From Candidatus Parcubacteria bacterium (lineage in GTDB: Bacteria; Patescibacteriota; Patescibacteriia; Patescibacteriales; UBA12075), in the NCBI GenBank assembly GCA_023142915.1, contig JAGLIO010000002.1, forward strand, positions 1-32,681: a stretch of 32,681 nucleotides of DNA, in the 5' to 3' direction. How positions within the stretch are numbered: the first letter of the stretch is position 1; each line of letters starts with the position of its first letter. Below, piece after piece: positions 7,160 through 26,900 of the stretch. A model generated the notes under the pieces. The model searched no databases. It worked only from the letters and a program-made list of their open reading frames with translations, and had not been told where the DNA came from. The position numbers and the translations under genes are program-made.

Positions 7160-8569
7160 TTACAAAAAATTCCTAACAATCCCCTCTAGCTTGCCTTGTT
7201 TGACTATTCGTAAATTTTTATAGCTAACCACCGTATCTGGAATAACTGCAGTTTTAAATCCGAGCTTTTCGGCTTCTTTTAAACGCTCTTTTAATTTTCC
7301 AACCTTCCTGATTTCACCGCCCAAACCGACCTCTCCGATTACAACTGTTTTTCTGTCAACAACTTGGTTTAAAAGCGAAGAGGAGATTGCCAGACAAACA
7401 GCCAAATCCAGACTTGGGTCGCTTACTTTTAATCCGCCGGCGATATTTATAATTACGTCTTGATTGGTTAAATTTATATTGGCACGCTTTGTTAATACAG
7501 ACGTTAAAACCTGCAAGCGATTCAAATCAAACCCGGACGACTTACGCTGCGGATATCCGAAAACCGTTTTTGTAACCAGCGCCTGCACCTCCACTAAAAA
7601 CGGCCGTGTGCCCTCCATAATAACACCGACCACCGATCCTGATATTGACTGAACTTTATCATCCAAAAAAACCGCGGAAGGATTGCTTACTTCTTTAAAA
7701 CCTTGTCCTGTCATTTCAAAAACTCCCAATTCGTCAACCGAGCCAAAACGATTTTTTGATGCTCTAAGCATGCGGTAATCATGTCCGGTTTGGCTTTCCA
7801 AATACAAAACCGCGTCAACAATATGCTCTAAAGATTTCGGTCCGGCAGCCGACCCATCTTTGGTTATGTGCCCTGTCAAAATCACGGCAATATTATTTTC
7901 CTTGGCTAATTCCAAAAATTTTATCGTGCAAGCCCTTATTTGATTAATACCACCCGCTTCCGATGGCACTTCTGATGAATACATAGTTTGGATTGAATCT
8001 ACTACAACCAAAACCGGTTTTCCCGCCATAGCTTTAGCGTCGGCGGGCTTGTCCTCCGAAGCCTTGGCATAGGAGGGCTTACCACCTAAAATAGCCGGAA
8101 TTATTTTTTCAACATCAGTTTCACTAATAAATTGCACGCCCTTAACATCACATTGTAATCTTTCCAACCTATCTTTTACCTGGATGGGTGATTCTTCTCC
8201 GCTGATATAAATTATATTTCCATACTTTTTTTTGTTAATCGCGTCTGTCATTTGCGCCAATAGCGTTGATTTTCCAATTCCCGGTTCGCCTGCTAGCAAA
8301 AGCAAAGATCCTGGAACAATTCCACCGCCAACTACCCTATCCAACTCACCTATCCCTGTAGTCATTCTCGTTAAATTCTGTGATTTTATTTTTTCCAAAT
8401 CTATTATCTTAGCCGAAACGGACATATTTTTTTGTTTTTCACGCCCATCCCCGACAAATTGCTCGCTCAAAGTCCCCCAAGAACCGCACTCCAAACAGCG
8501 CCCAATCCATTTTGAAGACTGCGCGCCGCACTTTGAACATTCGTAAATTGTTTTTTGTTGTTTTGGCAT
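7160..8569 (-). CDS. radA: DNA repair protein RadA (RadA/Sms branch-migration helicase)
   Basis: 469 residues with the complete RadA layout: an N-terminal zinc finger (C11, C14, C25, C28), a RecA-like ATPase with Walker A GEPGIGKS (94-101) and Walker B VLVVVDSIQ, the RadA-specific KNRFG motif (272-276), and a C-terminal Lon-like domain (IAGGLKVSDPSLDLAV). RadA drives branch migration during recombination and helps natural transformation in several bacteria. Residues 165-184, just before the Walker B strand, are an insertion of two 10-residue units (PSYAKASEDK and PADAKAMAGK) not normal for the family. The gene is last in the minus-strand block, 41 bases after the DsbA-like gene, and converges on the RND permease with only 6 bases between them. 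Confidence 0.96.
   Translation of the reverse strand: MPKQQKTIYECSKCGAQSSKWIGRCLECGSWGTLSEQFVGDGREKQKNMSVSAKIIDLEKIKSQNLTRMTTGIGELDRVVGGGIVPGSLLLLAGEPGIGKSTLLAQMTDAINKKKYGNIIYISGEESPIQVKDRLERLQCDVKGVQFISETDVEKIIPAILGGKPSYAKASEDKPADAKAMAGKPVLVVVDSIQTMYSSEVPSEAGGINQIRACTIKFLELAKENNIAVILTGHITKDGSAAGPKSLEHIVDAVLYLESQTGHDYRMLRASKNRFGSVDELGVFEMTGQGFKEVSNPSAVFLDDKVQSISGSVVGVIMEGTRPFLVEVQALVTKTVFGYPQRKSSGFDLNRLQVLTSVLTKRANINLTNQDVIINIAGGLKVSDPSLDLAVCLAISSSLLNQVVDRKTVVIGEVGLGGEIRKVGKLKERLKEAEKLGFKTAVIPDTVVSYKNLRIVKQGKLEGIVRNFL
8018..8077 (-). repeat. Two in-frame 30-nt repeat units inside radA
   Basis: Two 30-base units each encode P-x-x-A-K-A-x-x-[DG]-K. Each unit has short G/C-rich inverted arms: CCTCC/GGAGG (8053-8057, 8072-8076) and CCCGCC/GGCGGG (8022-8027, 8042-8047). 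The same type of unit occurs four times at 14481-14600. The number of bases is a multiple of three, so the radA frame is kept. Confidence 0.8.
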
Positions 8570-10134: not shown

Positions 10135-10797
10135 TTATTTTCTCCAATAAACACTATCAACTTTCCATGCTCCGTCTTCCATGACAAAACCGATTAAAAT
10201 ATCTTGGGAAAAAGTGTTGGAATAATTATTCATGGTTCCTGTTGCCTCTCTTCTGCGGGTAGAAATCAATACGCTGGCAAAACCTAAGTCATCATCAAAA
10301 TCTTTTAATTCCGAGGCAACAGACTTGGTTGTTATGCCGTAATAAATAGATGTATCGTAATTTTTTTCTTTTTGCTCTTTTATATAGCTATCCGACCATT
10401 TTTTCATTTTTGAACTCATAAAAATTTTCAAACTGCTGATGTTGCCGAAATTGGATTGATTGGAATAAGTTCCAAAACGTTCCGCAAAAGAACCGGCAAT
10501 CCTTATTAAATCCTTTTTGCCTACTTGAACTTCCTCTGCCACTGTATTATTTTCATCAAAATCGCCAATCGTAATTTCTCTCGGGTCTTTGTTTGCGCTG
10601 TCCTGGCTGGAATTTATCTGATCTTCGTCAATATTAAGCGCTTTCGGAATTTCATTATTTTTATCACTTATCACGGAATCATCATTTGTTTTGCGTATTA
10701 AATTTAAAAAATCTCCGGCAAAGAAAACATAAATAATACCGGCAAGCAATACCACTCCGACCAAAATAATTATAAAACCAAATATTTTTTTTTGCAT
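10135..10797 (-). CDS. Membrane-anchored hypothetical protein of the secretion locus
   Basis: From the ATG at 10797 the protein is 220 residues: MQKKIFGFIIILVG starts a single N-terminal transmembrane helix, followed by an acidic Asn/Asp-rich linker and a C-terminal globular domain of about 130 residues ending DILIGFVMEDGAWKVDSVYWRK. The ending, with a strand followed by GAWKVDSVYW, recalls small NTF2-like folds such as those of VirB8-type secretion proteins, but this is only a resemblance. An upstream ATG at 10845 would add 16 basic residues encoded by a pair of hairpins, so I prefer the downstream start, which puts the hydrophobic helix at the N terminus. The gene lies between the VirB4-like ATPase and the DsbA-like gene, 3 bases before the latter. 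Confidence 0.65.
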   Translation of the reverse strand: MQKKIFGFIIILVGVVLLAGIIYVFFAGDFLNLIRKTNDDSVISDKNNEIPKALNIDEDQINSSQDSANKDPREITIGDFDENNTVAEEVQVGKKDLIRIAGSFAERFGTYSNQSNFGNISSLKIFMSSKMKKWSDSYIKEQKEKNYDTSIYYGITTKSVASELKDFDDDLGFASVLISTRRREATGTMNNYSNTFSQDILIGFVMEDGAWKVDSVYWRK

Positions 10798-10808
10798 ATA
10801 TTTAGTTA

Positions 10809-10841
10809 TTCGCTTTGCGAACCCGCCTCTACGAATGCGGG
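10809..10841. repeat. Two small adjacent hairpins in the leader of the 10797 gene
   Basis: TTCGC/GCGAA arms with a 3-base loop (10809-10821) abut CCCGC/GCGGG arms with a 10-base loop (10822-10841). The G+C content is far above the surroundings, and CTCTACG resembles the arm sequence of the palindrome at 30173-30200. This is probably a decayed dispersed palindrome. Confidence 0.5.
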
Positions 10842-10872
10842 ACATGCGAATTATTATTATTAAAATTAATAG

Positions 10873-12807
10873 CTAAGCTATTTCCATATCTTTAACAGCG
10901 TCTTCTTCGTCTTCCTGATTGTTTTCTTGCCCTAAATTTTCCGCAAACTCTTTTTTTGCCTCTTCAATTTCCAAAAGCTGCCGAGGATCTGATGTGATTA
11001 ATTGATCTTCCGTATAAGAAGCGACTATTTTAATGGCGGCGTGCTTTGTGCCTGCGAAAAATATTCCTTCTCCGACACCGCATTCAAGCAATAAATATTT
11101 TTCCCCCTCGGTTAAAACAAAAGTTTTCTGCACTAAATCAATGGAAGCGCTTGACTGCTTTAACAACAACTGCAAAGACGAATTAGTCACAATAGCCTGG
11201 CCGTAAGGCGAAACCAAAAAATCATTTACGTCTTGCGTAATAGTAGTCACGCCCAAATAATATTTTCTGCATCTTTTAACCAGCGCGAAAATAAATTTCG
11301 CGCTATCCTCATGCTGCATCAGCCACCAAGCTTCATCAATTACCAATATGCGCTTCTTGGAAACGCTGCGAACAACATTCCAAATATAATTAATAATCGT
11401 ATAAATTGCTATCGGCCTTAATTCATCCTCTAAATCGCGCACTGAAAAACATACTAAAATATTATCCATTTTAACATTAGTGGGACTATTAAACAAGCCT
11501 GCAAAAGTTCCTTGAGTATATTTTCTAAGCCTTAAGGCCAAATCGGCTCCGCCTTCCATTCCTTCCATAATATCCTGCAAATCCTGCATAATCGGCGCTT
11601 CAACAGTTGCCAAATCGCAATCAGGCGTGATGTCTTTTTTTGCGTAAGTTTCCAATAAAGCGCGGTCAACCACTGAATCTTCTTCATGGCTAAGGTCGCC
11701 AAGCATTAAGCGGATCAAGCCTTTAACCGTTATCACGGCGCTGCGAATTATATCGCCGGGTTTGGAATCGCCGCCGATTGCGCGCGGCAAATCAAACGGG
11801 TTAATTTTATTTTCACTGGACAATGATAAATTAACATAAGTGCCGCCAACAGCGTCGGATAAATGCTTATACTCATGCTCGGGATCAATTACCATAACTT
11901 CGGTTCCCAGCATTAAAGAGCGCAAAATTTCCAGCTTAATCGCATAGCTCTTGCCGGCTCCGGAAGTCGCGAATACCACTGTGTTGGCGTTTTGCAAACT
12001 AAAACGATCAAAAAGAATTAAGCTGTTATTATGGCGGTTTACACCGTATAAAATTCCGTTATCAGTGGTCAGTTCGCTTGAAATAAAAGGAAATGACGAG
12101 GCAATCGGCGATGAATTCATGTTAAAAGTAATATATAATTCGTCATTGCCGAGAGGCAAAGTGGAGTTAAAGCCTTGCTCAGCCTGATAAAAAACTTTTT
12201 TTGAATAAACCAGGCGCGAACCGAAAATATTTTCAATCTCGCCGGTCAAGCGGCTTAATTCTTCTTTTTTTTCAGTATATATTGTTACATACAGAGCGAA
12301 TTGAAAAAATTTTTCTATACCCTGCGTTAAAGCGTCGCGCAAGGCTTCAATATCCCTTAGTGCTGTCTCGCGCAATGGATCGCGCGCCGCGCCTTTTTCC
12401 GCGTCTGAAATTATCTGCGCTTCCAAGCCGCCTACTTTCTTTTTTAATTGTTTTAAAATAATAGCGCTTTCAACAGGATAAAAAAACATAGCCACGTCAA
12501 AAGTGGAATTAAGATTAATAACCGGCGCGAACCAACCAACGCTTATATAGCGCGGATAATTTATAATAAAAATCGTACGCACGAACTTATCTCCCAAAAT
12601 CAAATAGTCAGGATTTATCTTCATGCTGGCGGGAGCGATTAAATCATTTATTGAAATAATGCCTTTACGATACGCTTTTTCTTCTTCAATATACTCCTTG
12701 GTTATATCAACCGAATGACTTAATTCTTTAATGGACTTTTTCTCAGCTTCCGCGCGCTGATGCTCCAATTCAAGCTCTTGCTCTTGCGCTTTTTTAGGTT
12801 CAAACAT
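10873..12807 (-). CDS. VirB4/TraC-type type IV secretion ATPase, motor half
   Basis: 644 residues. A helical N-terminal region (EPKKAQEQELELEHQRAEAE) and a VirB4-family middle domain lead to a RecA-like motor domain with Walker A FATSGAGKSY (about 279-288), the following VIDPEHEY motif typical of VirB4/TraC ATPases, and Walker B RILVIDEAWWLM (about 484-495). A conserved late motif ITQDVNDFL follows. Such ATPases hydrolyse ATP on the cytoplasmic side of a type IV secretion channel to drive substrate or pilus movement. The usual VirB4 N-terminal domain is encoded by the preceding gene (12852-13538). The gap of 44 bases, with its own stop and start, suggests a natural split rather than a frameshift. 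Confidence 0.9.
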   Translation of the reverse strand: MFEPKKAQEQELELEHQRAEAEKKSIKELSHSVDITKEYIEEEKAYRKGIISINDLIAPASMKINPDYLILGDKFVRTIFIINYPRYISVGWFAPVINLNSTFDVAMFFYPVESAIILKQLKKKVGGLEAQIISDAEKGAARDPLRETALRDIEALRDALTQGIEKFFQFALYVTIYTEKKEELSRLTGEIENIFGSRLVYSKKVFYQAEQGFNSTLPLGNDELYITFNMNSSPIASSFPFISSELTTDNGILYGVNRHNNSLILFDRFSLQNANTVVFATSGAGKSYAIKLEILRSLMLGTEVMVIDPEHEYKHLSDAVGGTYVNLSLSSENKINPFDLPRAIGGDSKPGDIIRSAVITVKGLIRLMLGDLSHEEDSVVDRALLETYAKKDITPDCDLATVEAPIMQDLQDIMEGMEGGADLALRLRKYTQGTFAGLFNSPTNVKMDNILVCFSVRDLEDELRPIAIYTIINYIWNVVRSVSKKRILVIDEAWWLMQHEDSAKFIFALVKRCRKYYLGVTTITQDVNDFLVSPYGQAIVTNSSLQLLLKQSSASIDLVQKTFVLTEGEKYLLLECGVGEGIFFAGTKHAAIKIVASYTEDQLITSDPRQLLEIEEAKKEFAENLGQENNQEDEEDAVKDMEIA

Positions 12808-14015: not shown

Positions 14016-15398
14016 TTAGTATCTTAATTTTTTATTCAACTCCATTACCGCCAAAAATTCTTCCTTATTCAAACAATCTTCTCCTTTTTCTTGCCTGTTG
14101 TTTATTATAGCATCAACTCCTTGGTTGGCGCTAATACTATCTTTGCCAATATCCAAATACATTTTATTCAGCTTGCTTTGTCGCCAAGCCTTAATGCCTG
14201 ACAAGCGCTGCGCGTAATTTTCTTCTTCCAAAAATTCAATTTTTTCCGATATTTTTTTTATTCGTACGTTTGAATCATTGCTTAAACGGCGAAAATTAAG
14301 CAAATCCATTTCCTTTAATTCGTCAATAGGACCAAGCAATTTCGGAGTATGCTTAACATCGTCCATTTTTACTTTTCCGCTTTTCACCTCAGGACGTTTC
14401 ATAGAAGGTTGCTTTGCAATTTCAAATTTTAATTTAGAAGGCTTAAAAATTTCTTTCTTGTCTTTTTTATTTATTGCCGACTTGCCCGCCGTAGCTTTAG
14501 CGAAGGAGGGATTATCCTCCAATGCCTTATCAGCTAAAGGCTTGCCCCGCGCAACTTTAGCGTAGTGGGGCTTGTCCCGCGCATCCTTGGCGTAGTGGGG
14601 CATATTCTTGAAATCATAATCCATATCCCGAGCGGATTCAATAGTTATTTCTTCGCTTCGGACTGGCGCGTTTTCCTGTTTTTTTTCTTCTTCAATTCTT
14701 TTTTTGTCAGCTAAAACCAATATATTATCAGCGTAAATCTCGCTAAAAGCCAAACCGCCGGAATCTATATCTTTGGATAATGTTTGTTTTGTATCAACTT
14801 TATTTCTAATTCCTTTTAAATATATTGTAATTATCCCGAAAAAACGCTTGCGTAAATCTTCAGAACTGAAATTCACTCCGATTTCTTTAGACGCCGCGTT
14901 AACAATATTATCATAATTAAGCTGTTTTTTTTGCTTTTCCGTATTATCAATTTCAAAACTTTCCAATTTTTTAGCCAATCCCTTTACTTCTTCTTCGTCT
15001 TCAGTTGAAAAAAAGAAATTTGAGCCTCTTACTTTTGTTTCTTCTTTTCTGTTTTGCGCTAAATCATTCAATTGTTCGCTGTCATTTCCGCCATCAATAG
15101 TATCCGCGCGCGCTTCTTTGGCTATTCCCAAATAATCAGCCACTACAAACAAAACATTATCTTTAAGATCATCAACCAAGCGCTCAGCCTGCCGCGCGTC
15201 CAAATCATGCTCAAACACAAAATACTTGGATAAATCCAAAATTGAAATATCCTTTACCATCACCCGCATTATCACCATCGCCAAACTAACGCCGTATTTT
15301 TCTTCCAATTCTTTAATTGCAGTCATAACCTCTGGCGCGGAAATTGCCATTCGCAATTCTTGCGGCAACTGATTAAATTTTTCTAAATAATTTAGCAT
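14016..15398 (-). CDS. Hypothetical cytoplasmic protein of the secretion locus, with in-frame peptide repeats
   Basis: 460 residues with no signal peptide or membrane helix. The N-terminal helical domain (about 1-100) starts YLEKFNQLPQELRMAI and resembles the start of the next upstream gene product (FNQKLNRLPKDVQEFL), so the two are probably distant paralogs. A second helical region at about 165-240 is followed by a charged linker. Residues 267-306 are four tandem 10-residue units (from PHYAKDARDK to PSFAKATAGK), an obvious insertion of the type also seen in RadA. The C terminus is helical and ends LNKEEFLAVMELNKKLRY. No family was recognised. Its place between VirB6-like and PrgI-like genes suggests an accessory cytoplasmic component. 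Confidence 0.7.
   Translation of the reverse strand: MLNYLEKFNQLPQELRMAISAPEVMTAIKELEEKYGVSLAMVIMRVMVKDISILDLSKYFVFEHDLDARQAERLVDDLKDNVLFVVADYLGIAKEARADTIDGGNDSEQLNDLAQNRKEETKVRGSNFFFSTEDEEEVKGLAKKLESFEIDNTEKQKKQLNYDNIVNAASKEIGVNFSSEDLRKRFFGIITIYLKGIRNKVDTKQTLSKDIDSGGLAFSEIYADNILVLADKKRIEEEKKQENAPVRSEEITIESARDMDYDFKNMPHYAKDARDKPHYAKVARGKPLADKALEDNPSFAKATAGKSAINKKDKKEIFKPSKLKFEIAKQPSMKRPEVKSGKVKMDDVKHTPKLLGPIDELKEMDLLNFRRLSNDSNVRIKKISEKIEFLEEENYAQRLSGIKAWRQSKLNKMYLDIGKDSISANQGVDAIINNRQEKGEDCLNKEEFLAVMELNKKLRY
14481..14600 (-). repeat. Four tandem in-frame 30-nt units in a secretion-locus gene
   Basis: The region is exactly 4 x 30 bases and encodes four units of the form P-x-x-A-K-x-A-x-x-K or close variants. 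The two units nearest the gene start share CCCCACTACGC and are almost identical; the other two have diverged. Units carry short inverted arms such as CCCGC/GTGGGG and CCCGCC/GGAGGG. They are the same family as the two units in radA at 8018-8077. Confidence 0.8.
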
Positions 15399-16635: not shown

Positions 16636-19050
16636 TTATACTGACATTATTTCATCATCTGTTTTTATCTTTTTTGCGTCATCACTATCTTTATTATGCG
16701 TTAATATTATTTCACGCATTTCACGAACCAATTCCGGATTTTCGCCTTGTTTATGCATTGATTTAAGTTTGGCATAAGTAATGTTAGAGGCTACATTATT
16801 ATTTGCTACAACAACTTGTGAACTATTATTATTTCTAATCATTTTATATAAATCATCTTTCTCAATTTTATTAATATCTTTAGCTTTGGCATTTTTCAAA
16901 TAATTGCCTAAAGCTTTATGGTCAACATCCAATCCTTTTTTAAATGCTTCGGTAATATCTCCGGTTAATTTAGCATGAAGCTTCGCGTATTTATCATCCA
17001 TTAAACTATCTTCATCTCTAGCGCCCTTTAAGCCCTCGCCAACACCTTCTTGATATTTTCTTCCTCTCTTAAATGCGGTTTCAAGAACTCTTGTCACATC
17101 TTCGTCATGGTACTCTTCCAATGCCTTTACAACATTTTTATCTTTATAAGCGTCTGCTCTCAATTTTGTAGAATCAACTTTTCCTTTGTCAATACGATTG
17201 CCAAACTTTTCTCTTCCTTCTTTTGTTTTAAAGTCATAAGCGATATGGGCTTGATTTTTATCAATTTCCGTATTTAACTCTCTTAATTTAATCTGATTTG
17301 CCTGTAATACATCTCTTGCCCTGTCAACGGCTTTGTCATCCTTGAAATCTCCATCTTTAGCCAATTTGAGCGCTGCTGCCATTTTTGTTTCTCCTGATGA
17401 GGTTTTATCATTCATTAATTGATCTAATTGGCTGGCGTTCATATTGGCATCAGTGTTTTTCTTGGTAGCTTTTTCAATCGCTTCAACTTGAGCCCTATGC
17501 AAGGTTGCCCGAGCATCGCTTTGCGCGCTTTTCCAAGAATCATGGGCGGCAACTCCCAGCGCGCCCATTGTTTTTTGTTCTTTTTTATCTATTACTAATG
17601 ATTTTGCAGTAACTTGATTATCTTTGTCTAATTCCTTAAATACTCCTTTTTCATCTGACTTATATTTCTTTCCGTCATATTTCATTATTGCGTCATTAGG
17701 CTTTTCCAACTGCTCGGAATAATAATCTCTTTTTGCTTGTTTTAAACTTTCTTTTTTACCGCGCCTAGCCGCAAGCGCCGTTCTTATGTTATTAGGGATA
17801 TTATAAGCCCCCGTACCCAAAGTAGTTGCGATTCCCTTATCTCCAAGTTTTGTTCCGAGCATTTTATCAACTCCCCTGCCAGCAAATTTATCCGCGGTTC
17901 CCAATGTAGCCAAACCAATCCTTCCACCGGCTTTTGCGGTAGCTTTTGCACCATCAGCAGCTTTATCTTTACCCCATTTAGCAAATTTTGCCGCCCTATC
18001 AGTTGTCTGTCTCTTAACAAAACCAAGCCCCATCCCCTTCGCCTTGCTCGCTAAATTCGCGCCATAGCTGGCGCCCATGGCGCCTAGGGACATAGTAATT
18101 TTCATGGCGCCGATTAAGAGTCCAATTGCAAGAATAAGCTGCATTGCGTTTTGGCTATCTCCTATTTCTGTAATTGTTGCCTGAATATTTTCGGCACTTC
18201 TTAAATCTAAAAAATCATAAGCATTTTTGGCTATAGTCAAAGAAAGCCAAGTAAAAAAAGCCAAAACAGGACCAACGATTAAGTATTTAGTAAATTCGCC
18301 CCACCACTGCGTCCAATATTTTCCTCCACCCGGAACCGCTGTTGATAAAAACGCCAAAGGCGACAAGACAATCAAAATCCAAAACATAATCAAGCGCATT
18401 ATCAATATGCCCATCAACATAATCATTATAAATAAAGCAATAACCATAAAAATCAAAGCCAAGCCAGCCGCATAAAACATTTGCGAATCCATATCGCCAA
18501 AATCAACCGCCTTGCTTAATGCAAGTAATTCATCAATATGAAGCATTACCACAAAATTACTGCTAGCTCCGGCAAAAGCATTGCTAAAAGTCAGCATTAC
18601 AATTTGTGAAATATCAATTAAAAAAAGACAAATTGTTTTAGAAAAATTTATTAACACCGCCATAATCAATAATTTTGGCAGATATTTTTTCATTGAATAA
18701 TTTTCCAAACGCAATATCGTAGCAAAAGCTATCATTAAAAGCACCAAAATAAAAAACATATTGCACAAATCCCGAACAATTCTCCATCCGTAAGCCACCC
18801 CGTCAATATCAAACTCTTGTAATGTAAAAAGCCAATTTACGACATGCATAACAAGAGTTAACATTGTGCCAAAAGCGCTTGCAATATATAAAGTAACCCA
18901 CGCCAAAAAACCGACAATCGCACTTCCGTCAGCCCTTACAATATTCGCACCAACCCCCTCAACCCCAAAAATATTCGCAGGCAACACAAAAAATACCAAT
19001 GCAAGCAGGGTAAAAATTAATATTCCTTTTTTTAGTTTTTTATTTAACAT
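16636..19050 (-). CDS. VirB6/TrbL-like polytopic membrane protein with long cytoplasmic-type tail
   Basis: 804 residues. A signal-like first helix (about 8-28) is followed by several further transmembrane helices between about 44 and 335, including LALIFMVIALFIMIMLMGIL and the motif FWILIVLSPLAFLSTAVPG, then WTQWWGEFTKYLIVGP. This is the pattern of the VirB6/TrbL channel protein. From about 335 to the end the protein is hydrophilic, rich in Lys, Asp and Ala, and helical, far longer than in classical VirB6. The ATG lies inside the last codons of the upstream ORF6N gene (7-base overlap), indicating translational coupling. It should form the inner-membrane core of the secretion channel together with PrgI and VirB4. 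Confidence 0.85.
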   Translation of the reverse strand: MLNKKLKKGILIFTLLALVFFVLPANIFGVEGVGANIVRADGSAIVGFLAWVTLYIASAFGTMLTLVMHVVNWLFTLQEFDIDGVAYGWRIVRDLCNMFFILVLLMIAFATILRLENYSMKKYLPKLLIMAVLINFSKTICLFLIDISQIVMLTFSNAFAGASSNFVVMLHIDELLALSKAVDFGDMDSQMFYAAGLALIFMVIALFIMIMLMGILIMRLIMFWILIVLSPLAFLSTAVPGGGKYWTQWWGEFTKYLIVGPVLAFFTWLSLTIAKNAYDFLDLRSAENIQATITEIGDSQNAMQLILAIGLLIGAMKITMSLGAMGASYGANLASKAKGMGLGFVKRQTTDRAAKFAKWGKDKAADGAKATAKAGGRIGLATLGTADKFAGRGVDKMLGTKLGDKGIATTLGTGAYNIPNNIRTALAARRGKKESLKQAKRDYYSEQLEKPNDAIMKYDGKKYKSDEKGVFKELDKDNQVTAKSLVIDKKEQKTMGALGVAAHDSWKSAQSDARATLHRAQVEAIEKATKKNTDANMNASQLDQLMNDKTSSGETKMAAALKLAKDGDFKDDKAVDRARDVLQANQIKLRELNTEIDKNQAHIAYDFKTKEGREKFGNRIDKGKVDSTKLRADAYKDKNVVKALEEYHDEDVTRVLETAFKRGRKYQEGVGEGLKGARDEDSLMDDKYAKLHAKLTGDITEAFKKGLDVDHKALGNYLKNAKAKDINKIEKDDLYKMIRNNNSSQVVVANNNVASNITYAKLKSMHKQGENPELVREMREIILTHNKDSDDAKKIKTDDEIMSV

Positions 19051-19586
19051 TTAAACCCGATTTCTTTTACTTTTTTATTTTTATCTTCTTTCATTAGAAT
19101 GTCTAAAATTCTGAATATTTCCGTAAACTTTTTATTGCCTTCTTTTTCAATTTTCATAATTTTATCAGCCAAATCCTTATATGAATAAACCAATTTTCTT
19201 ATTTTTACGAAAGTACGCATAATTAAAATATTCGTTTCAACAGCCTTTTTACTTTTTAAAACACTTGAGAGCATTGCAACGCCTTGTTCTGTAAAAACGT
19301 ACGGAAAATATTTTATATGTTTACCTCTGCCTTTCTTTAAGGTCGCAAATTGCGACCTTAAAGAATCATCAAATATTCCCTCTTTTTCTAAAAATTCAGT
19401 TTCCATTTTAGTAAGCCGGAACATAAAATCACTAGGAAATCTCTCAATATTTCTTTTTACCTGTTCATTTAGTCTCTTTGTCGTAACTCCATAAAGCATA
19501 GCCAAATCCCTATCCAGCATAACTTTTTGTCCGCGGATTAATAATATTTTATTTTCTATTTTTTCCAATGGAATTATATTTGGCAT
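19044..19586 (-). CDS. ORF6N-domain protein, copy 1 (nearest to the VirB6-like gene)
   Basis: 180 residues. The N-terminal ORF6N domain (about 1-60) has LLIRGQKVMLDRDLAMLYGV and TKRLNEQVKRN-x-x-RFP-x-DFMFRLT. A linker with SLRSQFATLKKGRGK follows, then the conserved YFPYVFTEQGVAMLSSVLKS and a helical tail ending NKKVKEIGFKC. ORF6N domains are found in phage antirepressor-like and KilA-N-type proteins and are thought to bind DNA. Its C-terminal part differs most from the other two copies, while its first 100 bases nearly match copy 3. Its stop overlaps the VirB6-like start by 7 bases. The coding sequence includes a perfect 31-base palindrome at 19334-19364. Confidence 0.88.
   Translation of the reverse strand: MPNIIPLEKIENKILLIRGQKVMLDRDLAMLYGVTTKRLNEQVKRNIERFPSDFMFRLTKMETEFLEKEGIFDDSLRSQFATLKKGRGKHIKYFPYVFTEQGVAMLSSVLKSKKAVETNILIMRTFVKIRKLVYSYKDLADKIMKIEKEGNKKFTEIFRILDILMKEDKNKKVKEIGFKC
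19334..19364. repeat. Perfect palindrome in ORF6N copy 1
   Basis: 15-base arms TCTTTAAGGTCGCAA and TTGCGACCTTAAAGA surround a single central base. It encodes SLRSQFATLK and lies in the linker between the ORF6N domain and the FTEQGVAML segment. Confidence 0.9.
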
Positions 19587-19588
19587 AT

Positions 19589-20095
19589 TTACTCACACTT
19601 AAACCCAATTTCTTTTACTTTTTTATTTTTATCATCTTTCATTAAAATATCTAAAACTTTAAAAATATTAATAATTTTTTTGTCGTATTTTTGTTCTATT
19701 TCCGCGATTTTCACTGCTAAACCCTCGTAAGAATTAATGAATTTGCGCATATTTACAAAAGTGCGCATAATCGCGATATTAACTGTAACAGCCTTTTTAC
19801 TTTTTAATACTCCTGACAACATTGCCACTCCCTGCTCAGTAAAAACATAAGGAACATATCTTCGTCCTCCTTTTTTTGAGGTGCCAAAATGGCGCCTCAA
19901 AACTTCAAACTCTTCTTTTGTTAGTCTAAACATAAAATCTTCCGGAAATCTGTCAATATTTCGTTTTATCGCCCTTACCAATGCTTTAGTTTCTATTTCA
20001 TAAAGTACAGCTAAATCACTATCCAGCATCACTTTCTGCCCGCGAATAAGCAATATTTTATTCTCTATTTTTTCTAATGGAATTATATTTGGCAT
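19589..20095 (-). CDS. ORF6N-domain protein, copy 2
   Basis: 168 residues with the same plan as its neighbours: ORF6N domain MLDSDLAVLYEIETKALVRA and RNIDRFPEDFMFRLT, a variable linker (EVLRRHFGTSKKGGRR), the conserved YVPYVFTEQGVAMLSGVLKS, and a helical tail ending KKVKEIGFKCE. Its recognition-like segment (EIETKALVRAIKRN) differs from GVTTKRLNEQVKRN of copies 1 and 3, so its DNA target may differ (inference). The 3' half is close to 95% identical by eye to copy 3. It is 2 bases upstream of copy 1. An imperfect palindrome is present at 19874-19902. Confidence 0.88.
   Translation of the reverse strand: MPNIIPLEKIENKILLIRGQKVMLDSDLAVLYEIETKALVRAIKRNIDRFPEDFMFRLTKEEFEVLRRHFGTSKKGGRRYVPYVFTEQGVAMLSGVLKSKKAVTVNIAIMRTFVNMRKFINSYEGLAVKIAEIEQKYDKKIINIFKVLDILMKDDKNKKVKEIGFKCE
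19874..19902. repeat. Imperfect palindrome in ORF6N copy 2
   Basis: 13-base arms TTTTGAGGTGCCA and TGGCGCCTCAAAA, with one mismatch, flank AAA. It is at the position corresponding to the copy 1 palindrome, but with different arm sequence. Confidence 0.8.
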
Positions 20096-20101
20096 AATTA
20101 T

Positions 20102-20611
20102 TTAATCACACTTAAAACCAATCTCTTTTACTTTTTTATTTTTATCATCTTTCATTAAAATATCTAAAACTTTAAAAATATCAATAATTTTTTTATCATA
20201 TTTTTGTTCTATTTTCGCGATTTTCACTGCTAACCCCTCGTAAGAATTAATGAATTTGCGCATATTTACAAAAACTCTCATTATAGCAACGTTAACTTCA
20301 ATTGCTTTATCGCTATGCAACACCCCTGAAAGCATGACAACTCCTTGCTCTGTAAAAACATAAGGTATTGAAGAAGAATGTTTAAGTAAAACGAACCGGT
20401 CGCAATTTGCGACCAGTTGCTTAAATTCTTCTGACATTAGCTGAAACATAAAATCTACTGGAAATCTTTTCGCGTTTCTTTTTACCTGTTCATTTAATCT
20501 TTTGGTTGTAACTCCATAAAGCATAGCCAAATCCCTATCCAGCATAACTTTCTGCCCGCGGATTAATAATATTTTATTTTCTATTTTTTCCAATGGAATT
20601 ATATTCGGCAT
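20102..20611 (-). CDS. ORF6N-domain protein, copy 3
   Basis: 169 residues. The ORF6N domain is nearly identical to that of copy 1 (MLDRDLAMLYGVTTKRLNEQ), the linker is unique (EEFKQLVANCDRFVLLKHSSS), and the part from IPYVFTEQGVVMLSGVL onwards is closest to copy 2, including the shared NMRKFINSYEGLAVKIA. Copy 3 is therefore a mosaic of the other two, as expected from recombination or gene conversion within the array. It is the first of the three in transcription order and starts 3 bases after the small membrane protein stop. A palindrome occupies 20394-20418. Confidence 0.88.
   Translation of the reverse strand: MPNIIPLEKIENKILLIRGQKVMLDRDLAMLYGVTTKRLNEQVKRNAKRFPVDFMFQLMSEEFKQLVANCDRFVLLKHSSSIPYVFTEQGVVMLSGVLHSDKAIEVNVAIMRVFVNMRKFINSYEGLAVKIAKIEQKYDKKIIDIFKVLDILMKDDKNKKVKEIGFKCD
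20394..20418. repeat. Palindrome in ORF6N copy 3, read in a different frame
   Basis: 25 bases with the core GGTCGCAA/TTGCGACC identical to copy 1, but with different outer base pairs (AAC/GTT) and one G-T wobble. The core is translated as VANCD here and as SQFAT in copy 1, so the reading frame over the core is shifted. Confidence 0.85.
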
Positions 20612-20910: not shown

Positions 20911-23900
20911 TCAATTACTTGCCGAAGCGCCCCAATTATCAGTCAAAGCAACACCTATTTTATCATAAGTTCCGATTGTGTAATAATGTATAAACTCATG
21001 CGGCTCTTCAATGTTTGGTCTGTCATTAAGTTCGCCGTAAGCCGCCGGAGAATCAACAACCCCGTCAGCCCAGTCAATATCAATCCTAGATAAAGGTAAT
21101 TGTTCCTCGTCAATAACTGAAGTAAACTTCAAAGTATAGTATCCTGAATTAATGATTGTAAAAGTGGGGGCCACTCCGCCCCAAACAACATTATCACTGC
21201 CGTCTTCCAACGTAACATTGTCTATTATAGGTAAAATTTTACAGGTAGGTCCGTTAACGGCCGCGTATCTATCAATAATATCGGCGGGCAAACAATCTGC
21301 GGGTGGTAATATATTATCAATAATATTATCTATGTCGTATCTGTTGGCGCCCCAGTCCCAAATCACGGTGCGGTAGCTTTCCACAAACAAACTGCTGATA
21401 ATATCTTTAGTGTCGTTTGAATCAACATTGTCTAAATTATTTATTAAATCGCAGGTTTCGCCGGCAGGGCATTGCAAATCCAAATAATGCTCATCACTAT
21501 TTTCGTCTCCATAATCCCAAGCCCCTCCAGGATAAGGATGAGCGCAGACAATTTCTTCATGATTACTGCAACGACCTATGTCTTTGCAAGACGGTCCATG
21601 GCACCCGTAAGGCAAGCCTGATATTACCGATTCACTTAAATTTTCCCTAAAAAATAAACGATCGTATTCGTCTGTTGAAACTATGCCGTCCCAGTCTTCA
21701 GGGCTTTTGACTTCAGCTGGAATTATAGCAGAGCCAAACGGAGGATCTTCATCTCCGTAAACATATCCGCCAAGCCCGCTAAGAGCATAATCTGAACCGG
21801 TTCGCACCCTGCCTGTCCACGCTTTGTCGTCAGCCGTATCAGAAACAACCTGATAAAATTTATCACACTGCAAACGATAATTCTCGGGATACATTAATTC
21901 GCTTGTTGTGTAATTGTATATCATAACAGGCGGATCTGAATCTGGTTCATTGTGAACAAGATCTCCGTCATACACATACCAGCTACCGAAAATTGCTGGA
22001 TACGCTACGTCATTTTTTGGAACACATGTATATCTTATATTATATTCAGTTCCAAGATCCCATCCACCTCCACATTCGCCATCTTCATAAACCATAACTG
22101 CTAATTTATAATCTGCATCAAGACAACCATCATAATATTCAGAATAATGACTGCCACATCCGGCGCCAGATAATGCTATATCTAATCCAGACCTCCATTC
22201 TCCTTCAGTTACAAGACTTCCAATTCCAGTCCAATCCACGATACCTGCCCAAAAATCTAAATCACAACAATAATCATCCTTATCAAATATTATCTTAGAT
22301 GTCCTTTTCTCCACAAAATCAAAATTAGCGTCCATGTCGGCGCAGTAGTAAACAGGGAATTTGCCTTCATAGCCTACTCCGCGTTCAATAATGGAAGAGC
22401 TTTTTATTCTGTCAACAGGATACCACATAAGGCAAGCGTCCCTGTTTCCGGGATATCGATCATATTCCATGCAATATCCTTCCATTCCCTTATCTATGCC
22501 TTTAATCATGTCATAGCTGTTGCAGGTAAAACTTTCTTGAGTAGGGTAAAGCCGGCAAGTCTTTGGAATAAAATCAGGCGTTTCAATCACCGGCGTTATT
22601 CTTATATTGTCAAAATAAATACTGCCTTTCAAATCTGCCCCTGAAACGGATTCGGCTTGCAGAGAAATCTCCATAAAACCGCTGGTTGGTTTAAAACTTT
22701 TTGTCATCGCTGTCCAGCCGTAAACGCTTTCATCAGATTCAAAAATTTCATTCGCTCCTCCAGTTAAAACTACTTGCGCTTTTGCATCGTTATTGGTGCT
22801 GCTTAAATGATAAGTGTTAACCATGTAGCTTATATAATAATCTTGTCCGACCTCAACCTGCGTGGAATTTGAAACAAGCCGCTGTCCCGCCCCCAATTTT
22901 AGCAATGACCGGCCCTCCATTGGATAAACAATGCCTGAAATCTCTGCTTCATAAGGATTATTTATAACATAAGCGTAATCAGGATCCCAAATGGTTCCGT
23001 CTAAATACCAATCAAGCGGATAATTGTCAGAATCATACATTTCGAAACTGCCATTACCCACATTGGCCTCAGCGCCTACTTCTTGCATATTTCCCAAATG
23101 ATATTGATCCATTATGACATAGCCGGATGTATCTTGATCATTGTTTATGTTAAAACTGTGAATGCCGGAATAATTGACAAATGACTGGCACTGGCCGCTT
23201 GAATTCATTTTAACGCAATTCCCAACGTTGTAACATTTATGCTCGCCCGTCATCAAGTCTTCCATGGAACTCCTGCAAGCAAGCCATTCAGCGCATACTC
23301 TATCAGGTTGGACTTTAATAAGCTGATTCGCGTTGCGATTTGTGGCGGCTCCTACTGCCGGGCTTGTTCCGTTCCCATCATTAATAGTCAAATTAGCGTC
23401 AAATTTCAAGCCGACAAAACCTGTTCCTGTTATTGCTCGTTCATTAAGTAAAACACATCCTTTTTCAAAATCAACAACGCCGTTACATGAAGACATGTCA
23501 AGATCATAATTAATTTGATAATCAATTATTGCTTTCTTTAATTCAACATCGCCAGATGCTGCATCCACCTCTATAGCACAGTCAGTGTTTGAATCAGAAT
23601 AAATCAAAGCGCTTTTAACCTCTGTTAATGATAATTGCAAAGCAAAGCTATTGCCGATATTTAATAAATTATTATTTTCATCCAACCGATAAATATCATT
23701 TGGGCAATCAATTGTTATATTTCCCGCGTTATTTGAACCGGCTAGCCTATATAACGTATAACTGCCCATATTAATATCCTGAACATTAGCAACCCATCCG
23801 TCGGGAACACCGTTTGAATCATCGTCTTGTAAAAAATCATTATTAAATATTAAATTAGTTGAAAATTTGCTTACAGGATCAATTAACTCGGAACAGCCAC

Positions 23901-26900
23901 TCTCGCTTGCCGGACAAACACCGGTCCATCCGGCGCTTGGCTGATAAACCTGAATTTCTTGCCCGCCATAACCGATTGTTTTAAATTCAGTCAAACATTT
24001 ATAATTAAATTTATCTAAAACGCAAGAATTATAGCACTTATTGTCCTCGCACTCCATATTCTCTGCGCAATCGTCATTTGAATCGCAAACATTTCCATCA
24101 CTTGCGCAATCGCTTGATTCATGGCAAATTTCATTTTCAATCGGACCAATATCCGGATCGTTAATTTCTCCGCTATTATCAATATCGCATTTTTTTATCT
24201 GCTTTTTATACCAGCCTATTGAATTAACATCGCCATACGGTTGAATGTATTCGCATACCTGATCGCCCGGATCTTTAAAATATTCCGTTCCATCGCCAGC
24301 AAGCCAAATCTCGCATTGAACCGCGTCGCTGCCGCAAAGAATGGTTTCATACTTATCAGGATTATTTTTTAAAAATATATCGCTATATTTAACCTGATTT
24401 TCATAAGTATAAGGTTCTCCCAGTCGCTCACAACCTTTATCAGCGGAATAACATTGCTTGTCTTTGTCGTATACAGCAAAAATAAATTTATCTTTTGGAA
24501 TATTAATTGTAGGAGAAACGTCTGTCGGAGCCAATGGCAAATCAGCGCTCCCAAACTCACTATAATTATACGTATCAATCATTAATTCGCATCCAACCGC
24601 GCTTTCGTGGCAAAGTTTGCTAAATTGCCGTAAATTATGTATTTCGCTTTGGGTATTCAGATAAGATTCACATCCCAAATTATAATATCTATCCTGAATT
24701 ATATCTGATACGTCATACATGCAAGCGTCAATATCCCAGGAATTTTTAATCAAATAATATCTATCAATAATTTCAACCAAACGAATATTATCTATATAAA
24801 ACTTGCTATCGGCCTGAATGATTATTTTTTCTTCATTGCTAATTATATAATCCAGAGTGTCGTTATTTAAAGAAGTAAGATTAAAATTATAAAATTTCCA
24901 CTCCGAATCTAGCTCATAATTATTTGCCTCTCCAAGCTCAAATTCAATATCAACGTTATCAACCCCAAATCCGATTCCGGTAAACGCGCCGGCATCAGCG
25001 GACTTGGCAATAAAGCTGATATAATATGATTTATCCAATTCCAATATTGAGCCTAAAATCTTAAAAATCTCATTATCAGCGCCTGAAACATAGAGAGAGT
25101 GCCCGCCGACCATTAAAGCCTCGCTTGACGGATTTAATGCGACCGGCAAATCGCCTTGCCAATTTTCATTAGTTCCTGATTCAATATCATCATTTAAAAT
25201 AAATCGCATATTATTTCCGCTGCTTCCTGAATATTCACGGCATCCGGCTTGTTTGGCTGAACATTTTTTGCCTTCTCCCGGAACGGCATCATATAAACAC
25301 CGTTCATGCTGAGAATTCCATAGTCCGCCATTTTTACAAAAAACCGCTTCTCCCGAATCAAACACGCAAACCTTGGTGTTGCTTTGGTTCTCGCAATCAG
25401 CTGCCACGCATTTGCTTTCACAGTCAAAATCACCATTGCATTCTTCATTGCACCAAAAAACAGCCGTAGCTTCATTTTCAATTATATTGTTTTCAGTGCG
25501 CCGATACGGATGGCAATTGTCAGAGCAGCTTATTGTGCGAGTGTATAAATGATAAGTAATCTCACCGTTTTTATTATAAAATTCCCGGCAGTCTGAATTG
25601 TAATCAGGATCGGTCGCCGGCTTATTATATATTTCTTTGCTACATTCGCTTGCGTCATTTCTGGTTGTTTGCGGACCATAATCGCTTGCAATACCGTCTT
25701 TTTCAAGATTATAAACGCGCAATTGATAACCGGTCTCGCTTGAACCCTCCCATGTGTAAAATTCCGCGCAAGACTCATCCGGCTTGCGACATTGCCTTAA
25801 TTCCGAATAATATTCTCGCGCCTCGGCGCCTAAGCCCAGTTCGTCCAAATTGGTAAATTCATCGCACCCTACGGAGCTTGCTCCGCATTTTTCCGCTGAC
25901 GCCGGCACGAAATATTGCGGCTGCAATGAATCAAAAGCGGTCTGCGTTTGAAAATATTCATTATAGCCGACGCATTCATCAGGGCAATAATCATCAGCCG
26001 TTGCCTTGCCGGCTATGCTCATTTTATCTTTAACTGCAGTGTACATATCACAGCCGACTTCATCGGCGTTGCACCAGCGACTAAAATTATCGCATTTAGG
26101 AGAATCTATTCCAGCTACTGATTCATAGACAATATAAACATCGCTAATCTGCGCTAAAGCGTCATCACCTGACCCATCCAGACAGTCATTTACCGACTGA
26201 TGACCTACTAATTGCATAGATATTGTAATAGTCTGCCCGGCAAAAGCTGAAATATCATAATTTATTGCTCCGGCATCATAATCAGTTAAATTATTAACAC
26301 TCCATACTGACGGTTCCCATGATTCAATGGTAGCTAAAACACTGTTTCCAGTGGCATCTCTTATCTCTAAATAATAAGCATCGGGGATATCAGGCAGACC
26401 GGGATGCAAATCAAAGCTTCTCATTTTAACATTGCGCCAAAGATGCAAAGCAGTCGCGCTGTTAGGAACATTAATAGGGTCTGAAATAAGCATTCCGTCA
26501 TAATCATTATTGCTAAGCCCGTCTAGGTTGGGCGCGTCTTCGCCAAAGCCCCAAGTATTCGGACCAAGTCCCAATTCCCAATCGCCGCCGTTGGCAACCA
26601 AATAAGCGCCGCTTGGATTATCAACTCGCGTGCCCTCCGGTCCTGAGCCCGGAGGACTTCCGCAATGCCCTAATACAGGATCAATTGATTCTTGAAAAAT
26701 CCAATTCGCAATCTGCATAAACGACGTTACCGATTCTGATTCTGAACAATTTAAATAATCCGGGGCTAATTTTTGATAAACCACATTACTTTCTTGGTAA
26801 TCTTTGTACCGTGTGGCTCTTTCATTAAACTCTAATTGCACAGCGTCAATTAAACAGCCAGCTTCTTGATTTTCTATGCTGACAAATATTTGATCACAAG

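Follow-up and report, generated by a model that had tools for sequence, protein, structure and literature searches.

In-frame 30-nt tagged palindromes in radA of a Candidatus Parcubacteria bacterium and their relation to REP sequences

The radA gene of a Candidatus Parcubacteria bacterium was found to carry two in-frame insertions of 30 nt, which, judging from sequence comparison, are very probably copies of a non-autonomous, REP-like mobile palindrome of exactly 30 nt. Stepwise presence and absence among relatives, nested copies with exact ends, occurrence in several reading frames, stem covariation and spread over many phyla argue for a mobile palindrome, while the anatomy of the unit, with a 5' tag and a mismatched one-strand hairpin, places it as REP-like with a new tag and suggests a single-strand mechanism. 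Patescibacteria are treated as streamlined in genome papers. About half of the sampled Patescibacteria genomes carry the unit, some copies being located inside core enzymes, and the unit explains odd peptide inserts (AKASEDK, LKLRRT, RSFSEGG and EALAKA) of predicted proteins, which can mislead alignments and annotation.

Units in radA and ORF14016 and their presence among relatives

In the window, i.e. the whole stretch of 32,681 nt that was analysed, the host genes and their units were as follows:

7160..8569, minus strand: radA, host gene, encoding an AAA_25/KaiC ATPase with a Zn ribbon and a Lon-like C-terminal domain
8048..8077, minus strand: RadA unit CCCTCCTATGCCAAGGCTTCGGAGGACAAG, in frame, PSYAKASEDK; among three congeners only in the window's species
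8018..8047, minus strand: RadA unit CCCGCCGACGCTAAAGCTATGGCGGGAAAA, in frame, PADAKAMAGK; shared by the window's species and congener G001 but lacking in G002
14016..15398, minus strand: ORF14016, host gene of four units, without Pfam match, adjoining PrgI and TraG-like P-loop genes
14571..14600, minus strand: unit CCCCACTACGCCAAGGATGCGCGGGACAAG, in frame, PHYAKDARDK
14541..14570, minus strand: unit CCCCACTACGCTAAAGTTGCGCGGGGCAAG, in frame, PHYAKVARGK
14511..14540, minus strand: degenerate unit, PLADKALEDN, in register by eye and below the reach of covariance model R1
14481..14510, minus strand: unit CCCTCCTTCGCTAAAGCTACGGCGGGCAAG, in frame, PSFAKATAGK

Both RadA units directly precede the Walker B strand VLVVVDSIQT. 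The original prediction of two in-frame 30-nt units at 8018-8077, just before Walker B, was exact in its coordinates and agrees with the alignment to the solved RadA 5lkm_A, in which the window's RadA is 20 residues longer between chain residues 154 and 161. The short inverted G/C-rich arms described for these units correspond to outer stems of 5-7 bp that close a mismatched inner stem. As 11 of 30 positions differ between the two RadA units (about 63% of bases in common, counted by eye in the nucleotide alignment), they are separate insertions, the second being no slippage duplicate of the first. The same unit type had been predicted in an unrelated gene at 14481-14600, where four copies, three clear and one degenerate, were indeed located. 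The unit motif matched the window 8 times, where dinucleotide shuffles gave an expectation of 0.16 and none of them reached 8; three of the 8 matches were the same palindromes read from the opposite strand. A search of the window against Rfam gave no match above gathering score.

The RadA site was aligned in 22 orthologues besides that of the window, namely those of congeners G001 and G002 and 20 more distant ones. Two units were present in the window's species, one in G001, and none in G002 or in the other 20 orthologues. The congener radA genes had clean gaps of 30 and 60 nt, and the remaining gene shared about 87% nucleotide identity. Similar differences were observed elsewhere: ORF14016 had about 4, 2 and 1 units in the congeners, while between congeners 2 versus 1 units were found at a tRNA-Glu site and also on the 3' side of tRNA-Met. 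The unit upstream of tRNA-Lys had a further palindrome of about 20 nt in its loop, which was absent in G002. At a site shared with G001 (L022), two stem pairs were changed on both sides, as seen by eye. Some unit sites were common to several species, indicating that part of the unit set is older. The exact 30-nt steps of two, one and no units in RadA, together with copies elsewhere, favour the proposal that a mobile sequence persists in coding DNA. An ordinary lineage-specific RadA loop, or a tandem repeat bound to this locus, which the two adjoining 10-residue units might suggest, is practically discounted by the stepwise absence in close relatives and by copies genome-wide and in other phyla.

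Two further features of the window were observed. Three neighbouring, closely similar ORFs at 19044-20611, all with the start MPNIIPLEKIENKILLIRGQKVMLD, look like a local tandem gene amplification. At 20911-29154, a cysteine-rich ORF of 2747 residues with an apparent signal sequence adjoins the PrgI/TraG-like genes and may belong to a surface apparatus of type IV secretion-like character.

Structure, distribution and reading frames of the unit

The 30-nt consensus of the unit is Y-CC-N-CC-TWCGC-YAAR-GCTWCG-G-N-GG-R-CAAG. It forms a hairpin in which mismatches are conserved and the outer stem covaries, with a CAAG/CTTG tag on one side only. On the CTTG strand, the 5' CTTG tag is followed by an outer stem that is GC-rich but variable, by conserved mismatches of purines round one A-T pair, by a conserved and GC-rich inner stem, and by a small loop. 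With a search pattern in which two stem pairs were left free (N), these pairs were complementary in 34 and 32 of 47 distinct copies, versus 12.9 and 18.9 after shuffling, and none of 10,000 shuffles was as high. The covariance-model alignment agreed on the covariation of the outer stem, although a fitted alignment itself leans towards structure. Inner mismatches and core were nearly invariant, in part because the search patterns fix them. Outer stem positions 2 and 3 were C-G in all 225 copies selected by the regular expression, which itself required CC...GG, and also in nearly all covariance-model matches. For the consensus, folding energies favoured the CTTG strand over the CAAG strand. A-C mismatches of the CAAG strand, equal to G-T pairs in the CTTG strand, outnumbered the reverse by 53 to 6, indicating that foldability is maintained on the CTTG strand.

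Copies were abundant beyond the window, both in its genome and in others. The 1.32-Mb genome of the window had 9 matches to the strict motif versus 0 for the reversed pattern, and 24 covariance-model matches up to E = 1, of which 18 had E below 0.01. Among 192 sampled Patescibacteria, 89 had matches to covariance model R1, with up to at least 29 copies per genome among the matches listed, and 32 had the strict motif; in 148 genomes of the Chryseolinea phylum, the strict motif was present in 4, the sample centre Chryseolinea included. The reversed control gave no match in either sample. A scan of GTDB genomes with the strict motif yielded at least 120 stretches, and the matches listed include Patescibacteria, Bradyrhizobium isolates, Geomonas diazotrophica, Chryseolinea serpens and Rhodohalobacter, as well as Verrucomicrobiota, Lentisphaeria, Kiritimatiellae, Armatimonadota, Acidobacteria and others. 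Motif counts in such genomes ranged from 1 to 66, which speaks against stray contamination for the multi-copy genomes. Collections of plasmids, phages and E. coli contained no full-length match and hence revealed no carrier. In IMG/VR, the motif was present in 22 stretches (L304-L325) from contigs with a viral classification, which may be true viruses or mis-binned bacterial DNA.

Half of 70 copies sampled from the phylum (35) were intergenic. The in-gene copies were read in frame F1 (PxxAKAxxGK) in 18 cases, in F2 in 5, antisense in 9, and in the frame closed by TAA in 3, two of which had a CCAAGG variant removing the stop, while in the third an additional base shifts the frame. Unrelated peptides, e.g. 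PPSLKLRRA, DLSAEALAKA and ARLRQGYGGQ, result from the F2, antisense and CCAAGG-only frames. Thus, the predicted peptide P-x-x-A-K-A corresponds to the commonest frame but is one of several, and about half of the sampled copies lie outside genes. F1 was the frame of every clearly in-gene copy in the window's genome. The host proteins are conserved enzymes and include RadA (three different places), LigA, DnaE, PolA, UvrC, PurL, Obg, PrmC (two copies), an RluD-like enzyme and SecA. The preference for F1 and the exposed-loop sites are most simply explained by selection against damaging insertions. The length of 30 nt is divisible by three, and four of the six frames are free of stops, so that copies within proteins can be tolerated.

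Noncoding copies clustered at tRNA genes, a neighbourhood common in the phylum sample. In the window's genome, units directly adjoin tRNA-Arg, -Glu, -Val, -Met and -Lys, in some cases as inverted pairs, and the last G or the CCA of the tRNA is provided by the unit. At one locus (L014; G000 contig C29, about 10573-10920), inverted units flank tRNA-Arg, -Met and -Lys exactly at the tRNA ends, and pairing between these units could extend the acceptor stems.

Insertion sites and the candidate mobilising enzyme

The ends of the unit were visible where one copy had entered another. Seven loci (L074, L131, L174, L186, L255, L316 and L322) had one unit inside another unit's loop (GCY^AARGC), and in L204, L209, L244, L248, L251 and L260 a unit lay within the right arm of another (RGCT^WCGG); of the 9 units listed at RGCT^NCG, at least 6 were in such a right arm. 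After removal of the 30 nt, the outer unit was exactly whole, with no duplicated target, so that each new copy adds exactly 30 bp. In L196, a filled host repeat, GCCCGCTG-unit-CCGCGGGC, stands beside unfilled copies of the same repeat, e.g. GCCCGCTGTCGCGGGC, and in Bradyrhizobium-like loci (L193, L230, L256, L286, L293 and L302) the unit lies inside the repeat GGATTGCT^TCGCTTCGCTCGCAATGAC, which by its sequence looks like a CGTC REP. Junctions after CT or CA made up 44-45% of copies outside the window's genus, versus 11% in the background; within the genus, they were 0 of 19. Units at the apex of a pre-existing palindrome with a stem of at least 7 were 10 of 222, versus 0.8%, several of them from one genome. 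A palindrome apex was rejected as the general target, as this effect, though real, concerns a minority of insertions.

Units with a different palindrome of about 20 nt, of the GTGGCAAAGCCAC or GTGACTTCGTCAC type, in their loop were observed in L014 (1698-1748) and L018. A second small mobile palindrome, of about 20 nt and found in unit loops, at tRNA-Lys absent from G002, may therefore exist.

Y1_Tnp genes and units co-occurred across 192 genomes with an odds ratio of 3.0 (p = 3e-4), although a Y1_Tnp match was lacking in 9 of the 28 unit-rich Patescibacteria and in 2 of the 9 other unit-rich genomes. Among 50 loci around Y1 genes in unit-bearing genomes, a clear unit was present in two only, at a distance from the gene, and none had a RAYT gene flanked by units in the manner of a REPtron. 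Y1/RAYT was consequently dismissed as the obvious cognate enzyme, the flanks of the Y1 genes being nearly unit-free and the association moderate and incomplete. The RAYT genes beside units in L196 and L262 were likewise rejected, because there the unit sits inside another palindrome adjoining the gene, and the adjacency probably reflects the insertion target. No recurrent gene family was found beside units among the unit loci. The only Y1_Tnp gene of the window's genome (G000; L010, contig C74, around 11148-11489) is flanked by other palindromes, GTAGCCTAGGCATTCTATGCCTAGGC and ATCCCGTTGAAACGGGAT, which recur one kilobase further on, GTAGCCTAGGCATTCTATGCCTAGGC having a GTAG start like classical REPs.

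A mechanism can be proposed in which the unit would fold as a tagged hairpin on the CTTG strand, a trans-acting Y1/HUH enzyme would act on this folded single strand, and the unit would insert without target duplication, adding 30 bp with each new copy; inside proteins such as RadA, the resulting hydrophilic loop of 10 residues would be tolerated. That a single-strand transposase of the TnpAREP/IS200 kind moves the unit in trans on the folded CTTG strand is suggested tentatively, falling somewhat short of probable.

Alternative explanations and comparison with known systems

The main alternative is that the palindromes were made and spread without a transposase, through replication errors such as hairpin-templated copying, template switching and slippage between copies. 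Quasi-palindrome correction and slippage could yield covarying stems and tandem copies, and no enzyme was found; nevertheless, this explanation is unlikely, since the second RadA unit is too unlike the first to have arisen by slippage, the inner mismatches persist in different phyla where copying of this kind ought to remove them, and units within unrelated host sequence keep their fixed 30-nt ends without duplication. Less likely still is that selection has kept and spread the units for a function of the RNA or DNA, e.g. in the processing of tRNA 5'/3' ends, in mRNA stabilisation or in termination. The noncoding copies of the window's genome, which abut tRNA ends as inverted pairs and could extend the acceptor stem, would be expected under such a function, as would the common tRNA neighbourhood in the phylum sample; but most tRNA genes in the retrieved loci were without a unit, and it would be left unexplained why in-gene copies use several frames and both strands, why copies are nested and why congeners differ in copy number.

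It is also conceivable that selection acted on the insert as a protein motif, a linker rich in lysine and alanine that spread through the usefulness of its peptide, as all in-gene copies of the window's genus share one frame and F1 is the commonest in the phylum sample. This possibility is very remote, because the other frames give unrelated peptides, half of the copies are intergenic, and the stem covaries as DNA or RNA.

Most REPs fall into the GTAG and CGTC super-families (Di Nocera et al., PMC3733652). The unit resembles GTAG REPs in having a hairpin on one strand (20-40 nt in REPs, the unit being 30 nt) with a tetranucleotide tag 5' of the hairpin, in stem mismatches, found in E. coli REPs and conserved in the unit, and in copies inside DNA-repair genes, REP copies inside repair genes having been reported (PMC3733652). 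It differs in that the tag is CTTG, not GTAG, in both consensus and strict motif, and in that units are mostly single rather than dimers, have no unit-flanked RAYT and are widespread in Patescibacteria. The TnpAREP of E. coli requires the GTAG tag and stem mismatches and cleaves at CT, and a Marinomonas enzyme of this type cleaves at CT and CA (PMC8266576). Outside the window's genus, the unit junctions after CT or CA match these cleavage dinucleotides, but they are read on the CAAG strand whereas folding is on the CTTG strand, so that the likeness is suggestive only. CGTC REPs, including Rickettsia RPE-4/RPE-6 and Neisseria dRS3, are likewise short tagged palindromes without a known dedicated transposase, occur in several phyla and have some copies in frame within genes (PMC3733652); their tag, however, is CGTC (or TGTC/CCTC), and their stems almost always start with A-T, whereas unit stems start with C-G.

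The original prediction had compared the unit with the Rickettsia palindromic elements. The comparison holds for the mode of insertion, as elements of the RPE-1 type also enter unrelated housekeeping protein genes with the frame preserved; the closest architecture is instead that of the REP class, the short tagged hairpin. The Rickettsia elements, described as about 150 bp and rickettsial (PMC10969869), are set apart by size and range from a unit of 30 nt found in many phyla. MITEs are similarly non-autonomous, palindromic and dispersed, but the unit is much shorter and has no target-site duplication at exact junctions. The lack of target duplication at nested junctions is shared with single-strand transposition of the IS200/IS605 type, in which insertion occurs 3' of a short fixed target; the unit shows a C(T/A) preference outside the window's genus and none within it.

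Tagged short palindromes able to sit in frame are a known kind. Neither a CTTG nor a CAAG tag occurs in the text of PMC3733652, and no relevant mention of the unit type, its peptides or its core DNA was found in open-licence papers; the CTTG tag type, the phyletic range, the stronghold in Patescibacteria and the exact self-nesting appear to be undescribed in the papers searched. It is possible, though we would stop short of calling it likely, that the units constitute a third REP-like super-family, characterised by the CTTG tag and a length of 30 nt, whose palindromes would move as single-stranded hairpins across many phyla with a stronghold in Patescibacteria, prefer existing hairpin loops, their own included, and change conserved proteins in ten-residue steps. 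Should the unit be a REP class whose tag is new, the GTAG/CGTC scheme would gain a further member, and as ends, target and folded strand can be read from nested and empty sites, the mobiliser could be sought.
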